24,867 nt of DNA from contig WELB01000099.1 in the NCBI GenBank assembly GCA_009602725.1, positions 169,462 to 194,328 on the forward strand, read 5' to 3'. The DNA is from Spirogloea muscicola (Eukaryota > Streptophyta > Zygnematophyceae > Spirogloeales > Spirogloeaceae). The translations under genes and the position numbers were made by a program. The notes under the pieces were generated by a model. The model did no database searches. It was not told the DNA's origin and was given only the letters and a program-made list of their open reading frames with translations. Of the stretch, positions 5,403 to 24,867 are shown piece by piece. Numbering within the stretch: position 1 is the first letter of the stretch; the number at the start of each line of letters is the position of its first letter.

Positions 5403-6715
5403 TAGCCGTGCAATTGCCCTGCTTCCTTCCTGCTCACCCTCTCCACTCGCATGGGCGGCCTTGGCTGCCGGTCGTTGGAGCAGACGGCGCAAGCAGCCTT
5501 CCTGGGCTGCTGGCACCACATCGCCTCTATGCTTCCCATGCGCTTCCCTTGCCTCCACGATCCCGTACGCACCGTGGAGGAAGGCTCCTTACCCTTCCAA
5601 GCGGATCTGAGGAGCATCCGTGACTCGGCAATCGGCTCTTTCCCCTCTATACAACCCCTACTCACGCCATTCTCCGCCCTCGCCCAAGCTTCGGATAGAG
5701 GGGCACAATCCAGACTGGTTACGGCAGTGGAAGATGAGCGCCGCAGAAGCTTGAGGAGGCTGCCAGAGATTCACAACAATCCAAGGAGCCTGGCAAGACT
5801 TACTTCCCTCGCCACACCTGGAGCCACAGACTGGATCACCTCACACGCCGTGGCCTGCGCCTTCAGCATCAGCTCCGAGGCCTTTCGGACGTTGCTGCAA
5901 CTCTCCCTCGGCCTCCCACCTAACTGCCTGATTGGGGTGCGCCAGTGCGAGTGCGGCTTCCGTGCAGAGAGTGCTGAGCTCGCCACTCACATGCTGCGAT
6001 GCCCCACTGGACCAGAAGTGGTGGGCATCCACAACCTTCTCCGTGATGCTCTGGCGGGTTTGATGCGCGACGCCGGGTACCGTGCGGTCGTGGAAGTGAA
6101 CAACATCATGCCTGTCATCACGGATGCCAAGGGACGTCATCATCGCCGCACACTTGACATTGTGGGCGTGCAACCTGGTGGAGGACCAAGGGCTTTGGTC
6201 AATATTGTGGTTACGGAGGCCTATAAAGGTCCAGCATCGACACACGTCGCTGGCCACGCAGTGGGCAGTGCTGAACAAAGAAAGTTGCAGCACTACTCCG
6301 ATTACCCCCGATGTGATCAGCTCTTGCCAGCGGCAATCGACATCTTTGGCTGCTTAGTTCCTCGTTTCCTTACTCTCCTTCAAAACATAGCCAATCTAGG
6401 CTACACACGACATGCAGATGTGTTCCCGGCTGAGATGGGCTTGCCAGCTGCTTATCTGTCGTTGTTGCGACGACGAGTTTCGGCCTGTTTGCAGCGTGCT
6501 CAGGCTAATGCTTTGCACCAGAAAGCTGGGCGAGCTCTAGTTGGTGTCAGAAGGGCTTCGTATCTGCCATCTAGTATCCAGGCATCGGTTAGCGACCTTT
6601 ATGTTTTGACCCGTGGTTTCTGAGCGGGTCAATCTACTGTAGGTTATGTAGGTCTTAAGATGTGCTTGCCTTTGTACTTGGCCATTTGGCCTTCGTTTGT
6701 TTCAAATACACGAAA
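5403..6715 (+). mobile_element. 5'-truncated non-LTR retrotransposon, second copy
   Basis: The frame is open from just after the TAG at 5402 to the TGA at 6621-6623, and is followed by a 3' untranslated tail. A 36-nt stretch of that tail (6676-6711) recurs exactly at 19536-19571, which supports the right-hand limit being near 6711-6720. The upstream reverse transcriptase domain is missing. No target-site duplication was identified, so the left edge is only where the open frame becomes readable. Confidence 0.75.
5451..6623 (+). CDS. C-terminal part of LINE polyprotein: zinc finger and restriction-like endonuclease
   Basis: The 390-residue frame covers the region that follows reverse transcriptase in LINEs with restriction-like endonucleases. 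It opens with Met-Gly-Gly-Leu-Gly-Cys-Arg-Ser and a Phe-Leu-Gly-Cys-Trp segment, typical of the thumb-to-C-terminal link in this group. A CCHC-type finger is seen at Cys166, Cys168, His180 and Cys184. The nuclease core follows, with Arg-Arg-Thr-Leu-Asp236-Ile-Val, then Val-Val-Thr-Glu256 and Lys278-x-x-x-Tyr, fitting a PD-(D/E)XK fold that nicks target DNA. The frame has no stop or frameshift over 1.2 kb, unlike the 2246-2999 copy, so it inserted recently or remains under constraint. The first Met is not a true start; the real protein would extend upstream into a lost RT domain. Codons remain intact to a natural TGA. Confidence 0.75.
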   Translation: MGGLGCRSLEQTAQAAFLGCWHHIASMLPMRFPCLHDPVRTVEEGSLPFQADLRSIRDSAIGSFPSIQPLLTPFSALAQASDRGAQSRLVTAVEDERRRSLRRLPEIHNNPRSLARLTSLATPGATDWITSHAVACAFSISSEAFRTLLQLSLGLPPNCLIGVRQCECGFRAESAELATHMLRCPTGPEVVGIHNLLRDALAGLMRDAGYRAVVEVNNIMPVITDAKGRHHRRTLDIVGVQPGGGPRALVNIVVTEAYKGPASTHVAGHAVGSAEQRKLQHYSDYPRCDQLLPAAIDIFGCLVPRFLTLLQNIANLGYTRHADVFPAEMGLPAAYLSLLRRRVSACLQRAQANALHQKAGRALVGVRRASYLPSSIQASVSDLYVLTRGF

Positions 6716-8593: not shown

Positions 8594-11289
8594 CTACTTC
8601 AAGAAGGTTGTGGCTAACCAGAGGAATACATAGGAGATGAGGGAAGTAATCAGCTCAAGAGACCAATATCGGGGGAGAATGAATGGCGGCACAAGAGGGA
8701 CTATGATGGAGCCAAGCACCCACCCAACGAGAAGAGCACCCAGGCTGTTGGAGTAGAGGGGCATATTATGTCCAGATGCACAAGGAGACCCAGGTGTCAG
8801 ACAAAGCCTTACCAGCTTCAGACAGCTTGCAGACAACTCGGGCCCATGCACAACGCACCTTATGCACACTGCCAACCATGTTGCTCCAATCTAGTCCATG
8901 CACAAAGGCTTTTTGTCTCGCCACCACTATGTGTAATCATTGTATGCAACAGATACTGAGTTCACTTGCTAATTTGTGAAGGAGCGCATATGCACTGAGA
9001 GCAAAGCTTCTTTGGCGAGCAACACTAGGTCAACATACCCAAGCAAGAAAGCACGCCCCAAGCTCTTTATTCGCTCATTCAAAAAGTAGATGCACAGTCC
9101 CAGAGCAACTGCAACCTGTCCAAAGTAGCACAAGCATATGAGACCTGTCAGCAAGGAAGTCGTAAGTCCGACACTTTTGAGCTTGATATGGCAGAGCAAA
9201 GCCACAGTGAGTATGCCATGAGCAACCCTTACATTTACGCAAGCTTGAAACAACTACAGAAGACTGATGTAGCCAAAAAGAAGATGCCTAAAACTAGAGT
9301 TCTTGAGGATAAGAATTTCATGAAGCTCATGACAAGCCCTCACCTGGAATGCGGGGCCTCCCTCAGCGGAGTTGATAACGCTCCACGCTCCAATTGCAAG
9401 GAAGAGAGCTCCCCGCTGCGCAATGACAGCCGGCTTGGGGGACTCTATCCGGTTGGCCAGAGCCTGCACCCAAGCTGGCGACTCTCCCACCTTCTTCTTG
9501 AGGTTGGCCTGTCAGATCAAGACATGCTCAATCAAGTCACATAAGAGGATGGACGTCAAAGTATGCAGTTAGCTGCCCGCCCAGTCAATGATGCTCTCAG
9601 TGAAGATACAAACACACCGCCAGGTCTGGCGACGGAGTCCTTCCTATTCAAGAGCAGTGCAAGCCCAATGAAGCAAGGGACAACACAACACTCTGCAGAT
9701 AAGAGCAGCAGGTGACACACCTTCAGGTTGATCTTGGAGCCCTTGCGGAGCCGGAGCTTCTCCATGATGATGCGGTCGTGCGCACTTTCAATTGCCTCCT
9801 TGCTCTTCTCATGGCCTTTGTACTGCTCCACCAGATAATTTCTTGCATCCTGAATTTCCTCATTTGATGCATCACGGGACACGCCCAACCGCTTGTATGG
9901 GTCCCGGACACCCAACCTGGGGAAGACGGGAGCCGGGCCTGGCCACAGGCTCAGCGGACTGTCAGCTGAATATAAATGGCAGTGTGCAGGACACCCTACC
10001 CAATTAATCAGTTCATGATTTTACCACGTACTCTTGGTGCGAAGGGGGGCTGGCTATGGTGGCGACTTGATGCCTAAGGAAGACTTATTTGGCAGCAATT
10101 TTGCAGAGATTGTCGTGTGGATGAGGCTCATGCCAGGCAACGGCAATCAGCCAAGAAAAACGTTCGAGGACAATGGAGGGTTCTACATAACTTGGTTGCT
10201 TACACCACAACAAGCTTGGCAAGACGAGACAGACAGGGACAAAACGCTCATCCTTGAAGGTGGGGCTTGCAAATAGCTACGCTGGTCTCCGTTGATTCAG
10301 TGTCTTGGATTGTTAATGGTATCTTGGACTGTGGACAAAAACATACATTGAACATTTGCAAGTGGTGATAGATACCAGTGGGAAAGTCGGGCTCGTCCGC
10401 AGCTGTGCCCTCTCCTCCAAGGGATGCGTCCATGGCTTGAAGCGGCTGCATTGCCGCTGAGCGCCCATCTGACCACAGCTGCCGCCGGCGGCCCCTGCTG
10501 CACTTGAGCGGCGGCGCCCAGCTGCAGCACAAGCACAGTCCCTCAGGCAACAACAGCGAGATAGTAGCAAAATGGGCAAAGAAAGCACAAGGGTTTCTCT
10601 AGGGGTTTTCAAAAAGCATCCAATTCCTGTACGATTAAATACTTCATGCCCAATGAGCGGTAGCAGCAAGAGCTCGCGCGGGCGAGTAAACGCCAAAGGG
10701 TTTAGCCAAGCTCTTGACTCGATCATAAGTATCATAAACCTCGGCTCGATGAGCCTAAGCTGACCACTAGACTTGAGCCCCTGTCTCAAGCCAGCCTGCA
10801 GTCACACTGTTACCTCAGCCCCCTTAGCTTTATGCAGCCCCAATGGCCCCTGAAGCTTCATGTAATCCCAATGTTTGGACTAGCTATTTCCTGATCAGTG
10901 TATCGGCTTGACTTGGCCTCCCTTTCAGTTCATAAGCACCGCACGCCACCTCTCAAGGGGCCTCCAACACCGAATTCGATCGACAGAGTCAAAACTGACG
11001 GCGACGCACCCATGCTCGGCGCACGGCGATGACCGCGAGCGTGCCGCAGCGGTGGTGGCGCCGGCGCTCACCGTGGAGGGCGTCGCTGCGGCGCCGGCGC
11101 GGCCCTCGACAGAGCTCCGCGCGGAGTCGTCTCCGCCGCCGCCGTCGCCGCCGCGGCCGCCGCCGCCGCCGCTGCCGCCGCCGCGACATGCGACGTGAGA
11201 ACTGACTCCAAGGAGCGCGGCCAACGCCACGGCGCTGCGTCAGCAGGGGCGCTGCAGCTCGCGGCAGGCGGGCTGCTGCTCGCCCGCAT
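8594..11289 (-). CDS. CJD1: Chloroplast J-like domain membrane protein, CJD1 type (six exons)
   Basis: Exons on the minus strand are 11289-11072, 10521-10376, 9965-9721, 9508-9344, 9115-9039 and 8744-8594. They join in frame at every splice site (total 1002 nt, 333 aa, stop TAG). The first exon is Ser/Ala/Arg-rich without acidic runs and fits a plastid transit peptide; it includes a polyalanine tract coded by GCC/GCG repeats. An acidic linker follows, then the J-like domain (Asp-Pro-Tyr-Lys-Arg-Leu-Gly-Val-Ser, ending Lys-Ile-Asn-Leu-Lys), which lacks the HPD motif of true DnaJ. The C-terminal half has Gly-Ala-Trp-Ser-Val-Ile-Asn-Ser-Ala-Glu-Gly-Gly-Pro-Ala-Phe-Gln and three likely membrane segments, ending Phe-Leu-Lys like Arabidopsis CJD1. 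That protein is a plastid inner-envelope protein affecting fatty-acid composition of chloroplast lipids. The four 3' exons are firm; exons 1 and 2 rest on phase agreement and composition. Confidence 0.88.
11000..11190. repeat. GC-rich trinucleotide (GCC/GCG) tract over CJD1 exon 1
   Basis: Bases 11125-11190 are almost pure CCG/GCC triplets on the plus strand. Read on the minus strand in the CJD1 frame they give a run of alanines. Such tracts vary readily in length, so this part of the transit peptide may differ between alleles. Confidence 0.7.
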
Positions 11290-11521: not shown

Positions 11522-14500
11522 ATGGCGGCCACAGGTTTCCTTCGGTGAGTCAAGCCTTCTGTTGCGCAAACGTGGCAGATAGCTGATAGTATCTTATCAA
11601 AACCAGGATATCTCTAGCTCCAGGGTGCAAGTACTGCAAGATCCTATGCCTTCATCTTTGTCGCTCAACATGGCCATAACTGGCCATGAATGAAGCTCAT
11701 CCGGACAAAGTTCTCGACTAATGCGGCCTCAGTCATTGCAGAATTTTGACACGCGTCTACTCAGCTCAAGTGGCGGTGAAAAGGATGGCAGTACCTTACT
11801 CTGCCTGCGTTAAGCAGCCTCATTGTCAGGTTGCACAAGAACAAGCTGTCTGCAGCTTGAGTACGATAAGTCCGCTGATGTGCACTGTCGAAGCTTCTAA
11901 GTCCATGCACAGGCTTCTATTTCTCAAGTCACTAAATTGCAGTGTGTGCTGCCAGCATGGCATGCTGCAAGTGGCGTGCTCTGGCAAGTCATACTCTGGA
12001 GACTTTTCCAACTGTGTAGCAGCCTGACCTGCAACGAGCGGGGAGGGATTGTATAAGGTGTTCATTTCACATCCTTCTGGCCAGCTGCATTGATGACATC
12101 CTAATGCTTTGCAGGCCACCTTCACGCGGTCCTTATGTCAAGCAGCCAGTGCAGACAGAGACCAGTATGATGTAGTGGTTGTAGGAGGTGGCATGGTCGG
12201 CGCTGCATTTGCTTGTGGCTTAGGTAAAGTACAGAATGCTGCTCGCTTTAGTATATGCCTTGATGCCTGCAACAAGGTAGATAAGAATGCTGGGTACTCA
12301 GGTCCAAAGGAACAATGGCATATACGTAGTTGGTGGCTCACCTATTATAGCATAGTTTTGGCCCCCTGTCTCTCATTCCTCTTACAGTCGATGCCTCCTG
12401 CCATTGCTGTCAAGCAAGGACAATATACTCTTTCCAAGCGATACTTGAACATCACTTCCTGCTTACTTACAAGACTGCTCTGCAGCAGGGGTTTACCATC
12501 CACCGTCAAGTATGAGCTGAGTTGCGACACTTCTGTTGAATATATTTGTTTGCAGCCACATCATCTATGACCAAGGAGCTGCGGACCACAATAGTGGACA
12601 CACAAGAGCTCAGCAAGATAAAACTCACTGATCCAGAGCTGAACTCCATTCCTGATCCAAGGACTGTTGCAATCAGTCCATCAACCATAAATTTCCTAAA
12701 AGGCAGGACAAGCTTGTCCCAGTGTTGCACATGATCTAGTATACTGGGTTCAAGTGCCACAGGATGAGCAGCTCGCAATCTGGCGCTGCCAATACTTCTC
12801 GAATACTCATCATTCCCTCCTGCAATGACTGTGCCTATAGCATGCGGTTCATGGAAAGCTATCACAGAACGTCGTCATGCTTCATTCGACACCATGCAGG
12901 TAGGCAGCTCAAGCATTAATTCTATCTTGGCGTTTCTGTTGCCAGTAGGATCAGACAGATATTCTGGAACTCACTTGACCTGATCAAGAACCCGGGCCTC
13001 CACGAATCCTCACTCTGCTTGGTTCACAGAAACTGACTGATCATCTACATGGGAGCTCAGCTTATACGTAGGCTTGTCCCAGTAATTTCTTGAAGCATCA
13101 CGTCCAGGTCAACCTTATAGTGGTAATTGATATCTCATGTCAGTATGACAAGTTTCTACAGGTGTGGGATTATGCTGGTCAGGGATATGTGCGATATCAC
13201 GCATCAGATGTGGGCCAACCTCGGCTCGGGTATGCGCTTCATTCAATATAGCAAAAGCCAGGGGTTGAAGTCAGCATCAATTGCAACAAATGACTCTGCT
13301 CAAATTCTGCTTGTGCTTCCGTTCTCATATTTCTTCCTTCGTGACTCGCGCAGGCTGATCACACATTCATCATTCATACTCAAAACCTGTCCTTCACAGG
13401 TGAAGCAAGTCACATAGTACCTGTGTGGCTTAATGTGCAGGTATTTGGTGGAGAATAGGGTGCTCCTTTCAGCTCTTCATGACAGACTGCAGGTCCGATT
13501 TACTTTGCCACCGAGGCTTTCACATGCTGTCTGCTGTTGTCCATTGCAGGCAATCATCTGTTCCAAGCCTCCTAGTTCTTTTGACTGCATCTCACAAGCA
13601 GCCCACACAAGCGCGCATGCAAATGTTTCCTAATACAAGTCTGTGACATGTTCTGATCTTGCTCACAGAATGTGGCTTCAATTGATCTGATCTGCCCTGA
13701 TAGTGTCGAGAATATTGAGTGGCCTGCTACAAGCTCCACCAGCCAATACAGGCCAACTCATGTTCCACCTCCAAGCAGCAGTGTGGGATTCACTGTGGAC
13801 TCTGAAGATTGGGCTCTCTTGAGGCTTGGCAGTGGTAGACAGCTTCGAGCAAGGCTAGTGGTAAGCCTGGCCACTTGAGTAACTGCAGGGGCTGGTTACT
13901 AGTGCCGCACATCTGTCCGTTTCTGAAAAGCATTCCTACTTGTGCACTCAAGTTTGTGGTGCTAGTGACGATCCTTGGAAAATGCACTGGCTTGAATGCT
14001 GCTTTGCTAGACGTTCCTGTCATGAGCAGGTCGGGGCCGACGGTGGGAGATCAAAGGTTCGTCAACTGGCAAACTTGAAGACCACTGGTTGGGAGTATGA
14101 CCAGCGAGCAGTTATCTCCACTGTTGAGGTTGACAGACCACATGCCACTGCATGGCAAAGGTTCCTCCCTACAGGGCCAATTGCACTCCTGCCACTAGGC
14201 AACAACTTTTCCAATATCGTTTGGTCTACAACTGCAGAGATGGCCAAGCAACTGCAAGAGGCAAATGAAACCCAATTTGCAGAAGCCGTCAACAATGCTT
14301 TAGTTCATGATCACGCTCCACTCCCCTCAACTAGTACAGATGACCCGATTCAAAGGTTGCTGCGCGCAGCCTCCTTCTCGGCTAGCGGTGATGAGTTTCA
14401 AGTACCTCCTAGGGTGACAGGAAGCTTCAGCCCGAGGATGTCTTTCCCGCTCATTCTCAACCATGCAGCAACATATGTCCAGCCAAGATTAGCCCTCATA

Positions 14501-15037
14501 GGGGATGCCGCCCACACAGTACATCCTTTAGCTGGGCAAGGTGTAAATCTAGGATTTGGAGATGCATCTCAGTTGGTCAAGAGTCTGTGCAAGGCGTGTG
14601 AGAATGGTGGTGATATTGGAGAGGTATGTCAATTTGTTCCTCACTATCTTCCATAGCCTATTCTAGTCTATTGTGCCATTCTCCTTCAAGTTCATGCCTC
14701 GAAAACAAGATGAAACTGTCTAGTTCAGCAGTTTTCTGGCAAATAAGACCGATGCAGCAGATCAAGGTCAACAAGTGCTTGATTGCAGGACACACGCTTA
14801 AATTACTGATTCTATTGTGACTCGTGGCCTGCTGTTTTCCAGCCAAGTGTTCTGGCACAGTACGACTTTGAGAGAAGGAGGGCCAATGTTGCAATGATGG
14901 CTGCTCTTGATGGTCTCCACCGAGTGTTTAAGGTGCAGTGGGGCCCCTTCAGTGTAGCTCGAAATCTGGGTTTGGCAGCGGTTCAATTCAGTGGACCTCT
15001 GAAAAGGCAATTCATGAGAGTCGCGATGGGGATGTAA
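11522..15037 (+). CDS. COQ6: Ubiquinone biosynthesis flavin monooxygenase COQ6 (ten exons)
   Basis: Exons are 11522-11544, 11742-11769, 12115-12223, 12556-12702, 12841-12899, 13162-13229, 13441-13492, 13669-13860, 14030-14623 and 14843-15037. All phases agree and the sum is 1467 nt (488 aa, TAA stop); human COQ6 is 468 aa. The N-terminus, with Arg and no acidic residues over about 35 residues, fits a mitochondrial presequence. Family marks are the FAD-binding Val-Val-Gly-Gly-Gly-Met-Val-Gly-Ala-Ala (exon 3), the Asp-Pro-Arg-Thr-Val-Ala-Ile-Ser segment, Trp-Asp-Tyr-Ala-Gly-Gln-Gly-Tyr, the DG motif Gly-Ala-Asp-Gly-Gly-Arg-Ser, Trp-Gln-Arg-Phe-Leu-Pro-Thr-Gly-Pro-Ile-Ala, and the GD motif Gly-Asp-Ala-Ala-His-Thr-Val-His-Pro-Leu-Ala-Gly-Gln-Gly. 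COQ6 performs C5 hydroxylation of the quinone ring on the matrix side of the inner membrane within the CoQ synthome. Intron 4 (12703-12840) starts with GC rather than GT. The first two exons are short and less certain. Confidence 0.92.
12703..12840 (+). other. GC-AG intron of COQ6
   Basis: The exon ends AAAAG and the intron begins GCAGGA; the acceptor is CTATAG. No GT lies at a position that would keep the frame into the well-conserved next exon (Gly-Ser-Trp and Arg-Arg-His-Ala-Ser-Phe-Asp). GC donors are a known minor class in eukaryotes. Confidence 0.75.
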
Positions 15038-15174
15038 CAGTTGGTGTACTTCACCTCCGCCTTTGCAGCAGCTGAATAGGAAAAGCGATTGCTAATAGCT
15101 TGCTAGGTCGTACGTAGATTTGCTCCTTGATCTAGGAGGCAGTCTGACATGATTTTGTCAATGCTTCCCCTTAG

Positions 15175-15715
15175 CCAAGGCTGCAGCTTATCTTGAATTG
15201 CAAAACAAGTCATACCTCTTACTTACCTACTCCTTACCTCTTCTATTGAGGCCTTTGTGCTGAAAGGAGCACTCATCGTTGCTAACTTGCACTCTTTGCA
15301 AAGAGTCCTCCTCGTTGAAGAAGGTCGGGTTCACTTTGCAAAGACTTCATTGGTTCATTGCTGTAGAGCCTCATGGTTGCAACATGTTTACCCACTCGTT
15401 TGACCACAGCTTCGTGCCCACGAATCAGCTCAGGCAGATATGTATAGGAGGAGCAACAATCTTGCTGCATCAGTGAAGAGGAGACAGCTTGATGACAGGA
15501 TGGAGGCAATTGATTGCCTCCATTTCGTATAGCAGGCAACAGGTCAGTTTTTGCAGATTGCGAAGACAAACACCACTGATCACAAATTCATCATTGAAAA
15601 TACTCCTGACGATCTTGCAAAGCTGTTGCTATGGCCCACCCTGCACGATGGCCGAGTTCATTCACGATGGTCAGTGGCTGGTGCAGAGTGCAGCCTGTAT
15701 CAGGCAATAGCATGA
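15175..15715 (+). CDS. Possible small gene of unknown function (four exon candidates)
   Basis: Four short open blocks with plausible splice sites fit one frame: 15175-15208, 15304-15323, 15474-15526 and 15557-15715. The joined product would contain Lys-Ala-Ala-Ala-Tyr-Leu-Glu-Leu-Gln-Asn-Lys, a charged helix with Lys-Arg-Arg-Gln-Leu-Asp-Asp-Arg-Met-Glu-Ala-Ile-Asp, and an ending with Asp-His-Lys-Phe-Ile-Ile-Glu-Asn-Thr-Pro-Asp-Asp-Leu, closed by TGA at 15713. Phases are 2-2, 1-1, 2-0 and 0-stop, which agree. The pattern looks like a coiled-coil-forming protein, but I do not recognise a family. No start codon was found in the 137 bp after the COQ6 stop, so the 5' end is missing or the model is wrong. 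Chance agreement of short exons is a real risk. Confidence 0.3.
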
Positions 15716-16150
15716 CCAGTCAGCCCCGCTGGTATCCGAGTTGTAGCAATTACGTGTCAGAAGTCAACCTTGACCAGAGACCTCGCGGGCAGCACAATTG
15801 GATTGTCACTATAGCCAGCTTCACGGCCTACGACAAGTCTGCGTCATTTGCAAGCAGTGCTGAATCAAGGCCTACGAGCAGGCCCGATTTGAGTGGGCCA
15901 CCAGGGCCACCAGTGACTTCGATAAGGCCGTTGCCAGCACTGAGCCTGGATGGCCGGCAGCTAAGGCGGCCAAGCACTGCCCAGAGAAGTGACGAAGACC
16001 CAGCCAATCTATATACCTTGCACATTCCTTTTTGACTAACTTCCCACAGCAATTGCCTTACATTCTTTGGCCAGTGGTCACTGTGCTAACATGGTAAGGA
16101 TTACAAATGATGTACAAGAACAATGACATGCTGCTATTGTAACAAGATGC
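15716..16150. other. Open but unassigned stretch
   Basis: A plus-strand frame stays open from about 15721 to 16035 and includes a Gly-Pro-Pro-Gly-Pro-Pro patch; another plus frame near 15868-15990 reads Tyr-Glu-Gln-Ala-Arg-Phe-Glu-Trp and could be a last exon. Neither has a clear family match, so I make no gene call. Confidence 0.3.
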
Positions 16151-17148: not shown

Positions 17149-17908
17149 ATGGGCTTCGTTCTGGCCACTCTTCTATGCAGTTTTGTCGCACCCTCTCTAG
17201 CTGATTATGAATGGACAGGAGACTTGGTACCGTATTCTAACACTCAATACACAGGCAACTCTGATGTAACATTTGGATGTGAGCTTTTCAGAAGAAACAA
17301 CACTTTTACCGAGACACTGGTCTTTGCTCTTGGCAATCCGACAACTACAGCAGCAACATGCTTTAAAGGGATCAGATAACAGATTTTAAGTGTGTGACAT
17401 AATATGATATCTCAAATAGCAACACCCTGTTGGTACGGAGTTCAACTCTATGCAGTTGACTCCCAGTGGAGCACGGGTTGTGGGTACATCGGTCTGACGA
17501 GTATCGCAACATCGAGTGGCTTTGGCATGGTTGCTACGTGTTGTAACATGGCAGTGACTGGAGCAGTCGGCCCACCAGGGCCACCGGGATCACGAGGGCC
17601 ATCTGGTATAAGTGGTACGATTGGGCCACCAGGGCCACCGGGATCACGAGGGCCATCTGGTATGGATGGTACGATTGGGCCACCTGAACGTGCACCTCAA
17701 GGACCTAATCAAGTACCTTGCCACAAATGGATTGTACACTCATTTTGTACAAATTCAGAGTAACGGGAACCAGAATGGGGCTGTCGCTGTTTTCTGTATG
17801 AATAACAATGCGTATGCTATTGGAGGTGGTTGCAATGTAGACGGTGACGGGTCATTATATTATAATCAGCTGAACTATGACGAGGTCAGATCTGGTTGGT
17901 CATGTTGA
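17149..17908 (+). pseudogene. Collagen-like secreted protein gene, apparently interrupted
   Basis: The start ATG at 17149 gives a clear signal peptide (Met-Gly-Phe-Val-Leu-Ala-Thr-Leu-Leu, cleavage near Ser-Leu-Ala). A globular part with paired cysteines follows and meets TAA at 17377 and TGA soon after in the same frame, then the frame is open again from 17404 (Cys-Trp-Tyr-Gly-Val, Cys-Cys-Asn). Next is a Gly-X-Y stretch of about 40 residues built from two 54-bp repeats (17566-17673), then a Cys-rich end, Gly-Gly-Gly-Cys-Asn-Val-Asp-Gly-Asp-Gly, to TGA at 17906. The last step needs a frame change; a 46-nt GT-AG intron at 17713-17758 would do it in phase 0. Two in-frame stops near 17380 have no obvious splice escape, so I call it broken, though a mis-seen intron is possible. 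Secreted collagen-like proteins are found in algae, bacteria and large DNA viruses; origin undetermined. Confidence 0.5.
17566..17673 (+). repeat. Two tandem 54-bp collagen-coding repeats
   Basis: Each unit codes 18 residues (six Gly-X-Y triplets), with a third partial unit starting ATTGGGCCACC at 17674. The two units differ at the first two codons (GTCGGC versus ATTGGG) and at ATAAGT versus ATGGAT, so they are young duplicates. Confidence 0.85.
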
Positions 17909-18706: not shown

Positions 18707-18976
18707 TCATCGTAGCACCAACGTGATGAGCTTGCAGTCGGTCCTCAGCCCTTCTGGGAATGGTCTACGGTAGGATGCTCGCAGACCCTTAGAGGCTAGA
18801 TATTCTGCTGCAAAAGTGACGCCGTCATGAAACAGGAGCTCGGCAGAGGCGTGCTCATTATAGTATCCTTCTGGAAGGAGGCACGCAACAACCTGCTCCC
18901 AAGTTGCAGCTTTCCTTGCTGCATGTACCTGATTGGATTTGTGATGATTGTCGTACCAACGACGATGCAAGTTCAA
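18707..18976 (-). CDS. Unidentified open frame in left arm of the inverted repeat
   Basis: Codes about 89 residues including Asn-His-His-Lys-Ser-Asn-Gln-Val-His-Ala-Ala-Arg-Lys-Ala-Ala-Thr-Trp-Glu-Gln, then Leu-Leu-Pro-Glu-Gly-Tyr-Tyr-Asn-Glu-His-Ala-Ser-Ala-Glu. The matching frame in the right arm (19066-19218, plus) preserves this stretch, and many differences between the arms are silent (AAA/AAG, GGA/GGG, TAT/TAC, TGC/TGT). That favours a real protein in this frame. The track starts at TTG with no ATG, so it is a fragment or an internal exon. Family unknown. Confidence 0.4.
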   Translation of the reverse strand: MNLHRRWYDNHHKSNQVHAARKAATWEQVVACLLPEGYYNEHASAELLFHDGVTFAAEYLASKGLRASYRRPFPEGLRTDCKLITLVLR

Positions 18977-19283
18977 TCAAGGCTGGTGGATTGTGTCCTT
19001 GTTGTTACTTTATAAGGTCCGACATAATCCACCAGCCTTGATTGAACATGCATCGTCGTTGGTAATACAATAATCACAAATCCAATCAGGTACATGCAGC
19101 AAGGAAGGCTGCAACTTGGGAGCAGGCTCTTCCGTGTCTCCTTCCAGAAGGGTACTACAATGAGCACGCCTCTGCCGAGCTCCTGTTTAGGACGTCAGTT
19201 TTGCTGCAGAGCATCTAGCCTCTAACGGTCTGCGAGCATCCTACCTTGGACCATTCCCAGAAGGGCTGAGGACCGACTGCAAG
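18731..19283. repeat. Long inverted repeat (arms about 265 bp, loop 23 bp)
   Basis: Left arm 18731-18997 and right arm 19021-19283 are reverse complements at roughly 85-90% by eye, from CTTGCAGTCGGTCCTCAG on the outside to GCTGGTGGATT near the loop. Small indels exist (for example the CGCCGTCATGAAA segment on the left). No target-site duplication flanks it. Transcripts would fold into a long near-perfect duplex. A partial third copy lies at 18628-18668. Confidence 0.9.
19066..19218 (+). pseudogene. Right-arm partner of the 18707-18976 frame, truncated
   Basis: Follows the same frame as the left arm but has TAA at 19063-19065, where the left arm has a Tyr codon, and ends early at TAG (19216-19218). 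It keeps Asn-His-Lys-Ser-Asn-Gln-Val-His-Ala-Ala-Arg-Lys. It is likely the decayed copy of the pair. Confidence 0.4.
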
Positions 19284-19343
19284 TTCACCTCTATGGAAAA
19301 GTCTTTCTTTCTGGCCCCGCTGAATTTTGTTCATTCTTTTCTG

Positions 19344-19571: not shown

Positions 19572-19587
19572 TAAATACTTTACTGCA

Positions 19588-19700
19588 GGCCTAAACCCTA
19601 AAGCACTTGAACCCACCCCAAAGCCTAGAGCCGTTCAAACCCTGATCCTGAACCCTAAGCCTGCGGTGAGATCCGCTCTAAACCCCTTAACCTCAAGCCC
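19588..19700. repeat. Degenerate telomere-type repeats upstream of the methyltransferase
   Basis: Scattered CCCTAAA-like units (CTAAACCCTAAAG, GAACCCTAAGCC, CTAAACCCCTTAACC) form an irregular array. The unit resembles the plant telomere repeat CCCTAAA. Confidence 0.65.
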
Positions 19701-19717
19701 TAGGCCTGGCGCCTGCC

Positions 19718-22700
19718 ATGGCCGCCGCGGGGGCGCCGGCGGGGCTGCTCGCGCGGCCGCGGCACTGGCTCGGCGCCGNGCCGGCGCCGCCGCCGGCGGC
19801 GGCGCTGGCGCGGAGGACGACGACCGGCGCCGCCACAACCGGGCGCAGGCGGCCTACTTCGACCGCACCTCGGCGTACTTCACGGGGCCGCCGCCGGACG
19901 AGATCCAGGCGCGGCTGCACGACATCGTCGCCGCCGCGGGTGAGAGGGCCGAGCCGAGCTGCTGGGCCCCGTCGCTGCGCTCACGACCAGAACCCTGAAC
20001 CCCAAAATCAGAAACCCTAACCCTAACCCCCAAAGCCTGAATTCCACGAGCTGCGCAGCGGCCCATACTTAGAGCTGCGACGCTGGACGGGACTCTCATG
20101 AAAGCTGAACCGTAACTTGTAGTCCACTTTGTGCTGCATGGAAGTCGAATTACTGAGCGGCGCATCGTGGAGTGGACACGACAGCGATGATGAAACCTAG
20201 CCCTTAAATCCCTAAACACTACATTCTAAGCCCTAACCCACAATAGTGACTTCAAATCCTAACCTTGAGCCCTATGCTTTGAATCCTAAACCCTAATACA
20301 AGCCCTAACCCAATCGTGGGCGCAGAGCTCGGGCCTGGGTCTCGCGTACTGGACTGCGGAGCGGGCGCCGGCATGCTGGCCCCCATGATTCTCCGGGCCG
20401 GCCCCGAGGAGGTCCTGGCCGTCGACCTCTCAGAGGCGATGCTGGCGGCCCTCAAGGAGCGGCACGACGCCGTCCGCTGCTGGCACGGCGACATCGTCGA
20501 CCTGCCGGCCACCGGCGCTTACGGCCCCTTCGACGCCGTCTTCTTCAACGGCGTCTTCGGCAACATGCACTCCCAGCGCAGTGCGCTGTCCGCAGCCGCG
20601 GCTCTAACCAAGCCAGGTGAGCGAGCACTGCAGCGCTGGCGGGGTGCTCCACGGCTCAGGGCGTGAGGCAAAGGGGTTAGTGTCAAAGTCTTCGTGCAGT
20701 ATCCGGAGCAGAACTGCAGATGCCTAGGCAGACGTTTGGCCGGTCGATACGAAGTATAAGCAGGCGCTCGCTGGCGCATGCAAAACTTGCCTGGACGATG
20801 TGCCGCTGGTTGTGGCTTTCTCTTATAGACCAAGCAGCAATAGACGTGTGTACGTGTGTACAGCAAGTCGAGTGGACCAGCTCTTGAGATGCCGCTGCTC
20901 GGCCACCGCAGGTGGGAGGATTGTGATCAGCGACCCGCTGGGTAAGGAGTACGTAGAGCACCTCCAGCGCGATGGCCCCGACATAGTTCCCCACCGCCTA
21001 CCCAATGCTGAAGAGCTGACAGCGCTCGCTGAAGGGCCGTCGCTGAGCGTCACCAGCCTTCTGGACAAGCCCGACCTGTACCTTGCCGTGCTCACAGTCA
21101 GTGTACTGGTCACTCTTGCTTCGGACCTAGATAATCTGGATCTATTAAGCTCACCTCACATGTTGGCAAGCACTCTGGTATGTTGCTTGAGTATGACATG
21201 TCAGCTGAGCTTAGTCAGTGCATGACCTGTTGACTCTAGCAGTTTGCTTCGTGTTGTGAAGGACAGAAGCCTGAAGTTAGCGTGCAGTCTGAGGACGACA
21301 GACTAAGTGAGGGCCCCTTTGTGTATTCATCAAGCATCGCAAATGAAGTGACTTACAATACAGGCCTATATTACTTCGAGGAACTGGTAATGCTTGCGCA
21401 TGGTGTTGCAGAACGGTGACTCTGAAACTGTCGTCTGGCGGCACAGTACGGTCGTTCTCGTTCCAAGGGGCACCACTGCGCATGCGTGGCAAAGTTGTGA
21501 GCGGCTTTGGCAGGGGCAGCAAGCAGATGGGAATCCCCACCGGTCAGCGCCGCTTGCTATGGCTTTGGACTAATACCGAAAACATCATGCATTGACCTGT
21601 TCATCATTGGAGTGGTTGAGTCGTTGGTATCCATGTATTTAAATAGCTTTGGACTCATCTCCTTTCTCCCAGCAAGCAGTCTGGATGATGGCCAAGGCCA
21701 TCGTCAATGCTAGAGTACCTCTGTAGTATTTTTGAATAATGCTACTTACTGTCGGCCTATTGCATTGGCAGCTGAGCATACCAGTCTGAGGTCTCTGATA
21801 AAAAGGATACCATTATTTTCCCTGCAATCGAACAGCGAACCTCCCGCCAGAGGAGCTCGAGGAGGAGTTGAAGGGCCTTTCAAAGGGCGTGTACTTTGGC
21901 TTTGCCCAGCTTCTCGCTGACGGCCTTGATAGGGGGGTGCACCAGATTGTGATGAATGTCGGCGAGCGGCCAACATTTGTGGACAGCAAGGGCACCACAG
22001 TGGTGCACCTCTTTGGCCTTGGCCTTCACTGTAATTTTTAAGAATGTTGACTGAAATAGTATTCAGCAATGGAGCAAGGGTTTAATCAATCTCAGTGTAT
22101 GCATGCATTATGAGGGCCAACATCTGCACCTCAAAATGAATTATCTAGATTGCCAATGTGCATCCCTGCATGCATGCATCATTCTGTATCGGCTGTATCG
22201 GCTGCTTCTCTAGTCAACTGATCCATCTGGCCCTGCTGCTATTGCAGGAGGTCCACATCCTACACGACTACAGCCGGGACTTCTACGGCGAGGAGCTCCG
22301 GGTGGTTGTCCTGGGTTTCATTCGCCAGGAGATGCGGTTCAGCTCTCTAGGTCGGGCGCTTTAGTATGACTGCGTGGATGACACTTGGCCACTCTCTTAA
22401 GAGCCTCAGCTTTAGATTGTCTACGGATTTGGGCTTAAAGCCCAGCCTTGATTTAGCGGGCTTTGCTGCTAGGCTGGAGCATACAATCAAGCAGCTTCTA
22501 CACGGCCTGTGCAGCAGTTTATTATGGTCACGGGTGAATGAATGTCCACTAGAAGCCAGCGACCAGGATTGGTTGGTAACTGCAAAGTTTCCCTTGTCTG
22601 TTCCAGCTGCAGAAGGTGTGTTATATGTTGCACTCAAAACTGATGCCGGACGTGGGCTTTGTTGTACAGATGACCTTGTCGCAAGGATCAGGAAGGACAT

Positions 22701-22773
22701 CACCATCGCCAAGGACGCACTGGCCAGCCAGTTGTGTGTGAGCTTCTTGAAGGACTCAAGTTTTGAGCTATAG
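19718..22773 (+). CDS. SAM-dependent methyltransferase joined to riboflavin kinase (candidate fusion)
   Basis: Methyltransferase exons: 19718-19939, 20326-20616 and 20912-21096. They carry Asn-Arg-Ala-Gln-Ala-Ala-Tyr-Phe-Asp, motif I Val-Leu-Asp-Cys-Gly-Ala-Gly-Ala-Gly, an acidic loop Val-Asp-Leu-Ser-Glu, Phe-Asp-Ala-Val-Phe-Phe-Asn, and Gly-Arg-Ile-Val-Ile-Ser-Asp-Pro-Leu-Gly, a class I fold of unknown substrate. Riboflavin kinase exons: 21412-21542, 21836-22002, 22248-22350 and 22670-22773, with Gly-Phe-Gly-Arg-Gly-Ser-Lys-Gln-Met-Gly-Ile-Pro-Thr-Ala-Asn, Gly-Val-Tyr-Phe-Gly, and the Glu of Val-Glu-Val-His that matches the family catalytic Glu; this enzyme makes FMN from riboflavin and ATP. 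A 35-nt exon at 21288-21322 would join the halves in phase (412 aa), but that exon is weak. The alternative is two genes, with the kinase starting at ATG 21481. In exon 1 the frame needs one extra base at the N (19779). Confidence 0.7.
19779..19779. other. Ambiguous base N at a frame break
   Basis: From ATG 19718 the reading frame is open to this N. The conserved downstream part (Asn-Arg-Ala-Gln-Ala-Ala-Tyr) is in the frame reached if one base is missing here. The surrounding sequence is a GC-rich GCC repeat, a common place for base-calling failure. Confidence 0.65.
20008..20310. repeat. Degenerate telomere-type repeats inside methyltransferase intron 1
   Basis: The intron contains AAACCCTAACCCTAACCCCC near 20010-20030 and further CCCTAAA-like units at 20200-20310. 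A different, non-repetitive stretch (20040-20190) sits between the two arrays. Confidence 0.75.

Positions 22774-24597: not shown

Positions 24598-24867
<270 letters not shown>

Follow-up and report, generated by a model that had tools for sequence, protein, structure and literature searches.

Does one gene of the alga Spirogloea muscicola encode both a methyltransferase and a riboflavin kinase? This question is raised by a 24,867-nucleotide stretch of its genome (contig WELB01000099.1, positions 169,462 to 194,328), hereafter the window, which corresponds to C99:169462–194328 in the assembly searched (153 Mb, 471 contigs). The original prediction placed here, on one strand, an S-adenosylmethionine (SAM)-dependent methyltransferase followed by a full riboflavin kinase (RFK), and both domains indeed score above cut-off in that order. 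The methyltransferase, of class I (MT), is recognized by PF13649 (53 bits, cut-off 27) and PF08241 (47.7 bits, cut-off 21.2) in an open reading frame (ORF) at 20283–20666; PF01687, the RFK domain, reaches 27.6 bits at 21832–22020 and 33.0 bits at 22221–22349 (cut-off 19.6), while the ORF containing the first RFK exon (21347–21595) reaches 20.7 bits against the same cut-off. With a probability that we put at about 0.8, positions 19719–22773 (+) form one eight-exon gene for one protein, with the MT at the N-terminus and a eukaryotic-type RFK at the C-terminus, as modeled from genomic DNA alone.

The open reading model comprises eight segments (19813–19939, 20326–20616, 20912–21096, 21243–21306, 21447–21542, 21836–22002, 22248–22350 and 22670–22773), has gt...ag introns throughout and translates into 378 amino acids from 19813 to a TAG stop. 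The candidate exon 1 (19719..19939, +) has an ATG at 19719, the MT frame from 19813 (EDDDRRRHNRAQ...) and the donor CCGCGG/gtgaga; its homologue at a second locus of the same alga, L011 (C129, minus strand), is open from ATG to an identical donor. Exon 2 (20326..20616, +) encodes the MT core, with the GxGxG motif I (VLDCGAGAG), the acidic residue after beta-2 (the D of the loop AVDLS) and an FGN motif, and exon 3 (20912..21096, +) encodes the end of the domain (GGRIVISDPLG...VPHRLP...LYLAVLT). The RFK begins in exon 5 (21447..21542, +; RSFSFQGAPLRMRGKVVSGFGRGSKQMGIPT), which also holds the end of the linker, continues through its core in exon 6 (21836..22002, +; ANLPPEELEEEL...NVGERPTFVDSKGTTV) and exon 7 (22248..22350, +; EVHILHDYSRDFYGEELRVVVLGFIRQEMRFSSL), and ends in exon 8 (22670..22773, +) with its C-terminal part and the TAG stop. 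Its translation contains a GRGS...G.PTAN loop and an E-x-H...DFYG active-site region, which we take to be the functional motifs of riboflavin kinases.

The two halves are separated by a junction (21097..21446, +) in which introns of 146 and 140 nt flank a linker exon, exon 4 (21243..21306, +; FASCCEGQKPEVSVQSEDDRL; borders cag/TTTGCT...CTAA/gtgagg), matched in L011 and in P0001, an annotated copy with the same MT-RFK order. The phase-compatible path first proposed, 21096→21288–21322→21412, translates without a stop; nevertheless, exon 21243–21306 joined to 21447 is the better choice, since this path is open in both the window copy and the C129 copy and yields the linker of P0001 (FAS.CEGQKP…SED…SF.FQGAPLRMRGK).

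Several observations weigh against reading the locus as one gene. Exon 1 of the window copy contains an N at 19779, and its ATG (19719) does not share the MT reading frame; the alternative linker path is stop-free too; and the junction introns (90% and 86% identical between the window copy and L011) are about as conserved as the exons, so that splice sites are not fixed by conservation. As side observations, many degenerate CCCTAA-like units, resembling telomere-type repeats by eye, occupy 19580-20310 (5' region and intron 1), and a large inverted repeat lies directly upstream of the gene at 18718-19296; one pair of arms measures 168 nt, with 93% complementarity and a spacing of 23 nt, and another 104 nt, with 88%.

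The same alga has further copies. L011 keeps all eight exons, with exon identities of 90–98% and intron identities of 74–90% to the window copy, and is open from ATG over 412 amino acids. Flanking DNA matching window 14284–16064 is duplicated beside it, so that L011 arose by segmental duplication and is no independent evidence, which also counts against the proposed fusion. P0001, labelled by its source as one mRNA, shows identities of 89% and 91% with the two loci over 274 amino acids (both its ends are missing) and is thus a third copy; the closest annotated protein carries the label SM000166S02449. Between the window locus and L011, the ratio of nonsynonymous to synonymous substitution rates (dN/dS) is 0.18 overall, with 0.23 for the MT, 0.36 for the linker and 0.12 for the RFK, and both halves are under purifying selection. 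One could argue that, of the two duplicates, the one in the window is decaying, with a broken start, and that C129 holds the working gene, considering the N and the out-of-frame ATG here while L011 is open. We consider this unlikely: gt...ag borders flank the other exons, all of which are open, the overall dN/dS is low, and exon 1 of L011 has an N as well, which makes an assembly ambiguity in a GC-rich exon the simpler cause.

The same domain order was also looked for in other species. With the joined protein as query, 85 matches were obtained at 1e-10, 12 of them covering at least 89% of the query, and a profile search gave 312 proteins at 1e-20 (the best 120 of 312 listed). Three homology searches, for which either the whole fusion or just its MT half served as query, provided a set of 307 proteins, picked by similarity so that the fused fraction carries no meaning. 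An MT-profile match upstream of the RFK motif was present in 126 of them, while 114 had the MT only, 31 the RFK only and 36 neither. By its recurrence in these 126 sequences, as anticipated for other algal proteomes, the two-domain order is more than chance. The fusions named include Chlorella vulgaris, Myrmecia, Nannochloris, Micractinium, Trebouxia, Coccomyxa, Raphidocelis, Haematococcus, Chlamydomonas eustigma, Volvox, Pleodorina, Pyramimonas, Cymbomonas, Micromonas and Klebsormidium, the liverworts and mosses Marchantia, Calypogeia, Sphagnum, Ceratodon and Physcomitrium, and one xanthophyte, Tribonema; Chlorokybus, Ulva and Mesostigma are presumably among them, going by JGI label codes. 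Eight of the 126 bear transcript-type labels, so that the species concerned probably make one mRNA for both halves. Two neighboring genes, transcribed separately, would be compatible with the MT frame running on beyond 21096 as far as the stop at 21225, where the MT could end, and with an in-frame ATG at 21482 that could start the kinase. The 14 exon-5 codons before this ATG show, by eye, three synonymous and two amino-acid changes relative to L011, which is weak coding evidence. Against this stand the fused order in the 126 proteins, the eight transcript-type labels and the one-mRNA label of P0001, and two separate genes appear highly improbable.

Based on these sequences, the fusion is not particular to S. 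muscicola: chlorophytes and bryophytes have it, and so do streptophyte algae. The architecture is thus widespread and overlooked, not a new kind of system. Databases already contain such proteins, some named 'riboflavin kinase', some unnamed and many with both Pfam domains listed. In our searches of the PMC literature we found no description of an MT-RFK fusion, subscription journals being largely outside this search. In the available text of a 2010 survey, the RFKs of two Micromonas species are scored as monofunctional (PMC2972280), whereas Micromonas commoda P0021 has an MT-like domain. On the other side of the balance, no MT is seen in two Closterium models and one Riccia model (P0030, P0031 and P0024); upstream of the RFK, the longer Closterium model has a Ser/Pro-rich translation with no MT similarity. 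Two further proteins, P0028 and P0029, have a degenerate MT-like start, an RFK and an extra listed PF09493 domain.

The fusion is, by sequence, a second and distinct riboflavin kinase of the alga, since S. muscicola also has a plant-type FMN hydrolase/RFK (FMN, flavin mononucleotide) at three further RFK loci, L008–L010 (C239, C162 and C10). These carry upstream HAD-phosphatase pieces like those of P0034 and P0039, whose HAD parts align to L008–L010, while at L011 only their RFK parts align. The upstream exons of the window gene are, according to Pfam, MT and not HAD phosphatase. An RFK tree was built from 48 sequences with 200 bootstrap trees; of 18 retrieved proteins picked as non-fusion rows, P0052 was left out as the RFK motif search missed it. 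The HAD, animal, fungal, Cafeteria and Symbiodinium rows lie beyond a 100/99 branch, with the fusion RFKs on the opposite side. That side also holds Closterium and the RFK-only P0176, P0187 and P0191, which might reflect loss, fragments or poor gene models. The tree also provides a point against the proposed reading: the fusion label needs two changes, not one, in 200/200 bootstrap trees. This is due to a long-branch pairing of Tribonema with RibF, and if only the well-supported branches are considered, a single change is required. The tree positions of Tribonema and RibF, being long-branch joins, were not used.

What, then, do the two halves do? The kinase half very likely phosphorylates riboflavin with ATP to FMN. 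The relative P0086, from Myrmecia, aligns with human RFK (1nb0) through both motif regions, and the RFK beta-barrel fold was found. The human enzyme, compared via P0086, has a similar kinase sequence and fold, but is monofunctional and has no methyltransferase domain. The MT half of the S. muscicola gene probably binds SAM, and for its methylating a small molecule as a domain held against the kinase the chances appear evenly balanced. The AlphaFold model of a relative is confident over the domain junction (pLDDT 93, pTM 0.91); the fixed arrangement that it suggests is deduced from the pTM alone and, the model giving no domain-to-domain error, this weakens the case. Regarding the substrate, NCBIfam provided no class for four fusion relatives, with no match at cut-off among those listed (the best 25 of 31, 17 of 17, 25 of 34 and 25 of 37). 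Fold and solved structures gave no substrate either, the MT half resembling many class I methyltransferases about equally.

Motif I was testable in 100 of the 126 fusions. GxGxG is kept in 68 and lost in 32, the acid is kept in 86, and both are lost in 14, the domain being still joined to the kinase. The SAM-binding motifs are kept here, but each of the six fusions tested from bryophytes has lost them, as have some from chlorophytes; the Marchantia protein P0009 lacks them. The link between FMN production and methylation that had been put forward for this locus is a supposition. An acid-to-His change is common to the bryophyte fusions and to standalone angiosperm relatives of the MT half. The latter (P0278, P0282, P0283, P0284, P0289, P0291 and P0293) are 248-276 amino acids long, have no Pfam label and have lost the SAM motifs, and a methyltransferase fold is predicted for P0283. 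A reasonably well-favored scenario is that, in land plants, an MT half without SAM binding would have been kept as a structural or regulatory partner, and later retained without the kinase in angiosperms. In algae, methylation by the MT half is plausible. It could also be that in algae too the MT half is a SAM-responsive or purely structural module supporting or regulating the kinase, with no methyltransferase in use. This idea draws on the 14 doubly altered fusions, on the confidently predicted junction and, by analogy, on a precedent in the same pathway, vascular-plant FADS1, which retains an inactivated pyrophosphatase domain according to the available part of PMC9678776. Yet in S. muscicola motif I, the acid, FGN and VPHxLP are all intact, just as in the standalone prokaryotic relatives P0197 and P0227, and the MT half has a dN/dS of 0.23. 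Intact motifs together with this value indicate a constrained function, possibly catalysis, and a non-methylating module in algae is thus a tentative alternative, to which we give less than even odds.

Standalone class I MTs, namely P0194–P0224 (mostly unnamed metagenome proteins) and P0227, are 40–47% identical to the MT half, with alignments mostly covering 84–99% of the query (only 54% for P0206). P0197 and P0227 have FGN, SHPxG and LP signatures in common with it, but these proteins are without a kinase. P0227 is near-identical to L012, one of three standalone relatives (L012, L013 and L014) in Obscuribacterales, a non-photosynthetic branch of Cyanobacteriota. By inspection, no flavin genes were seen near L012 and L013, whose neighbors are glutamate dehydrogenase-like, Ser/Thr kinase-like, CdsA-like and RuvB-like genes and thus offer no hint of a substrate. 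A cyanobacterial (plastid) origin of the MT was considered and is unsupported: only one of 292 genomes of the phylum of genome G003 matched at 1e-25, and it was G003 itself. This draw was a sample, with at most 11 candidates scored per genome among those listed, and the gene-bearing genomes G001 and G002 were absent from the matches. Searching a plasmid collection with the MT gave two Vibrio records at ~33% identity, which are uninformative.

Among known systems, the plant FMN hydrolase/RFK (AtFMN/FHy) is likewise a two-domain plant protein with a C-terminal RFK, but its N-terminal partner is a HAD phosphatase instead of an MT and, in the tree, its RFK is placed on another branch. Bacterial RibF (riboflavin kinase/FAD synthetase) likewise joins an RFK to another domain, in this case an adenylyltransferase, and when four fusion proteins were scanned with the RibF models of NCBIfam, the scores stayed well under the cut-off. 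In the vascular-plant FADS1, too, a flavin enzyme is joined to a domain that was retained although one lineage lost its catalysis (PMC9678776, as far as available), while its activities and domains differ from those of the MT-RFK fusion.

Elsewhere in the window, 12097-14656 (+) carries exons of an FAD-dependent monooxygenase (PF01494, 63 bits at 13883-14656), COQ6/UbiH-like by inspection, and 9556-10020 (-) encodes in one ORF a protein resembling CPP1, the chaperone-like protein of POR1 (71 bits to PF11833). A short ORF at 17398-17763 (+) has collagen-like GPP repeats (PF01391, 30.1 bits). The 405-amino-acid ORF at 5406-6623 (+) has no Pfam match and is probably a dispersed element, because similar stretches (RVSACLQRAQANALHQKA...) occur near the C10 RFK locus L010. 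The last 122 positions of the window (24746-24867) are all A, possibly an assembly feature.

According to the accessible part of a 2022 paper on plant flavin enzymes (PMC9678776), it is not known which enzymes produce FMN in plastids and mitochondria. The fusion is a candidate for this plastid or mitochondrial riboflavin kinase and may serve an organelle in some species. The N-terminal extensions of many of 22 relatives are acid-poor, which, as composition only, is compatible with organelle targeting. The start of L011, by contrast, is short and acidic, unlike a transit peptide (again composition only). In the parts of the papers available, Chlamydomonas RFK2 (Cre01.g025250) appears in a list of proteins that interact with plastid ribosomes (PMC8894945), and it was detected under UV-C (PMC7305600); its identity with the fusion could not be shown, and it is a lead only. 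No flavin terms were found in the main text of a Marchantia plastid proteome preprint (PMC13419835), as far as available. A speculative and, taken as a whole, improbable extension is that the fusion would be an organelle RFK whose MT half senses or uses SAM, tying one-carbon status to FMN supply; land plants would have turned the MT half into a non-catalytic regulator, and angiosperms would keep it as a standalone plastid protein with the kinase dropped. A conserved second RFK with its own partner domain represents a testable candidate for organelle FMN synthesis in algae and bryophytes, and the loss of the SAM site in several lineages with the domain kept, along with the unannotated angiosperm relatives, provides concrete orthologues to study.
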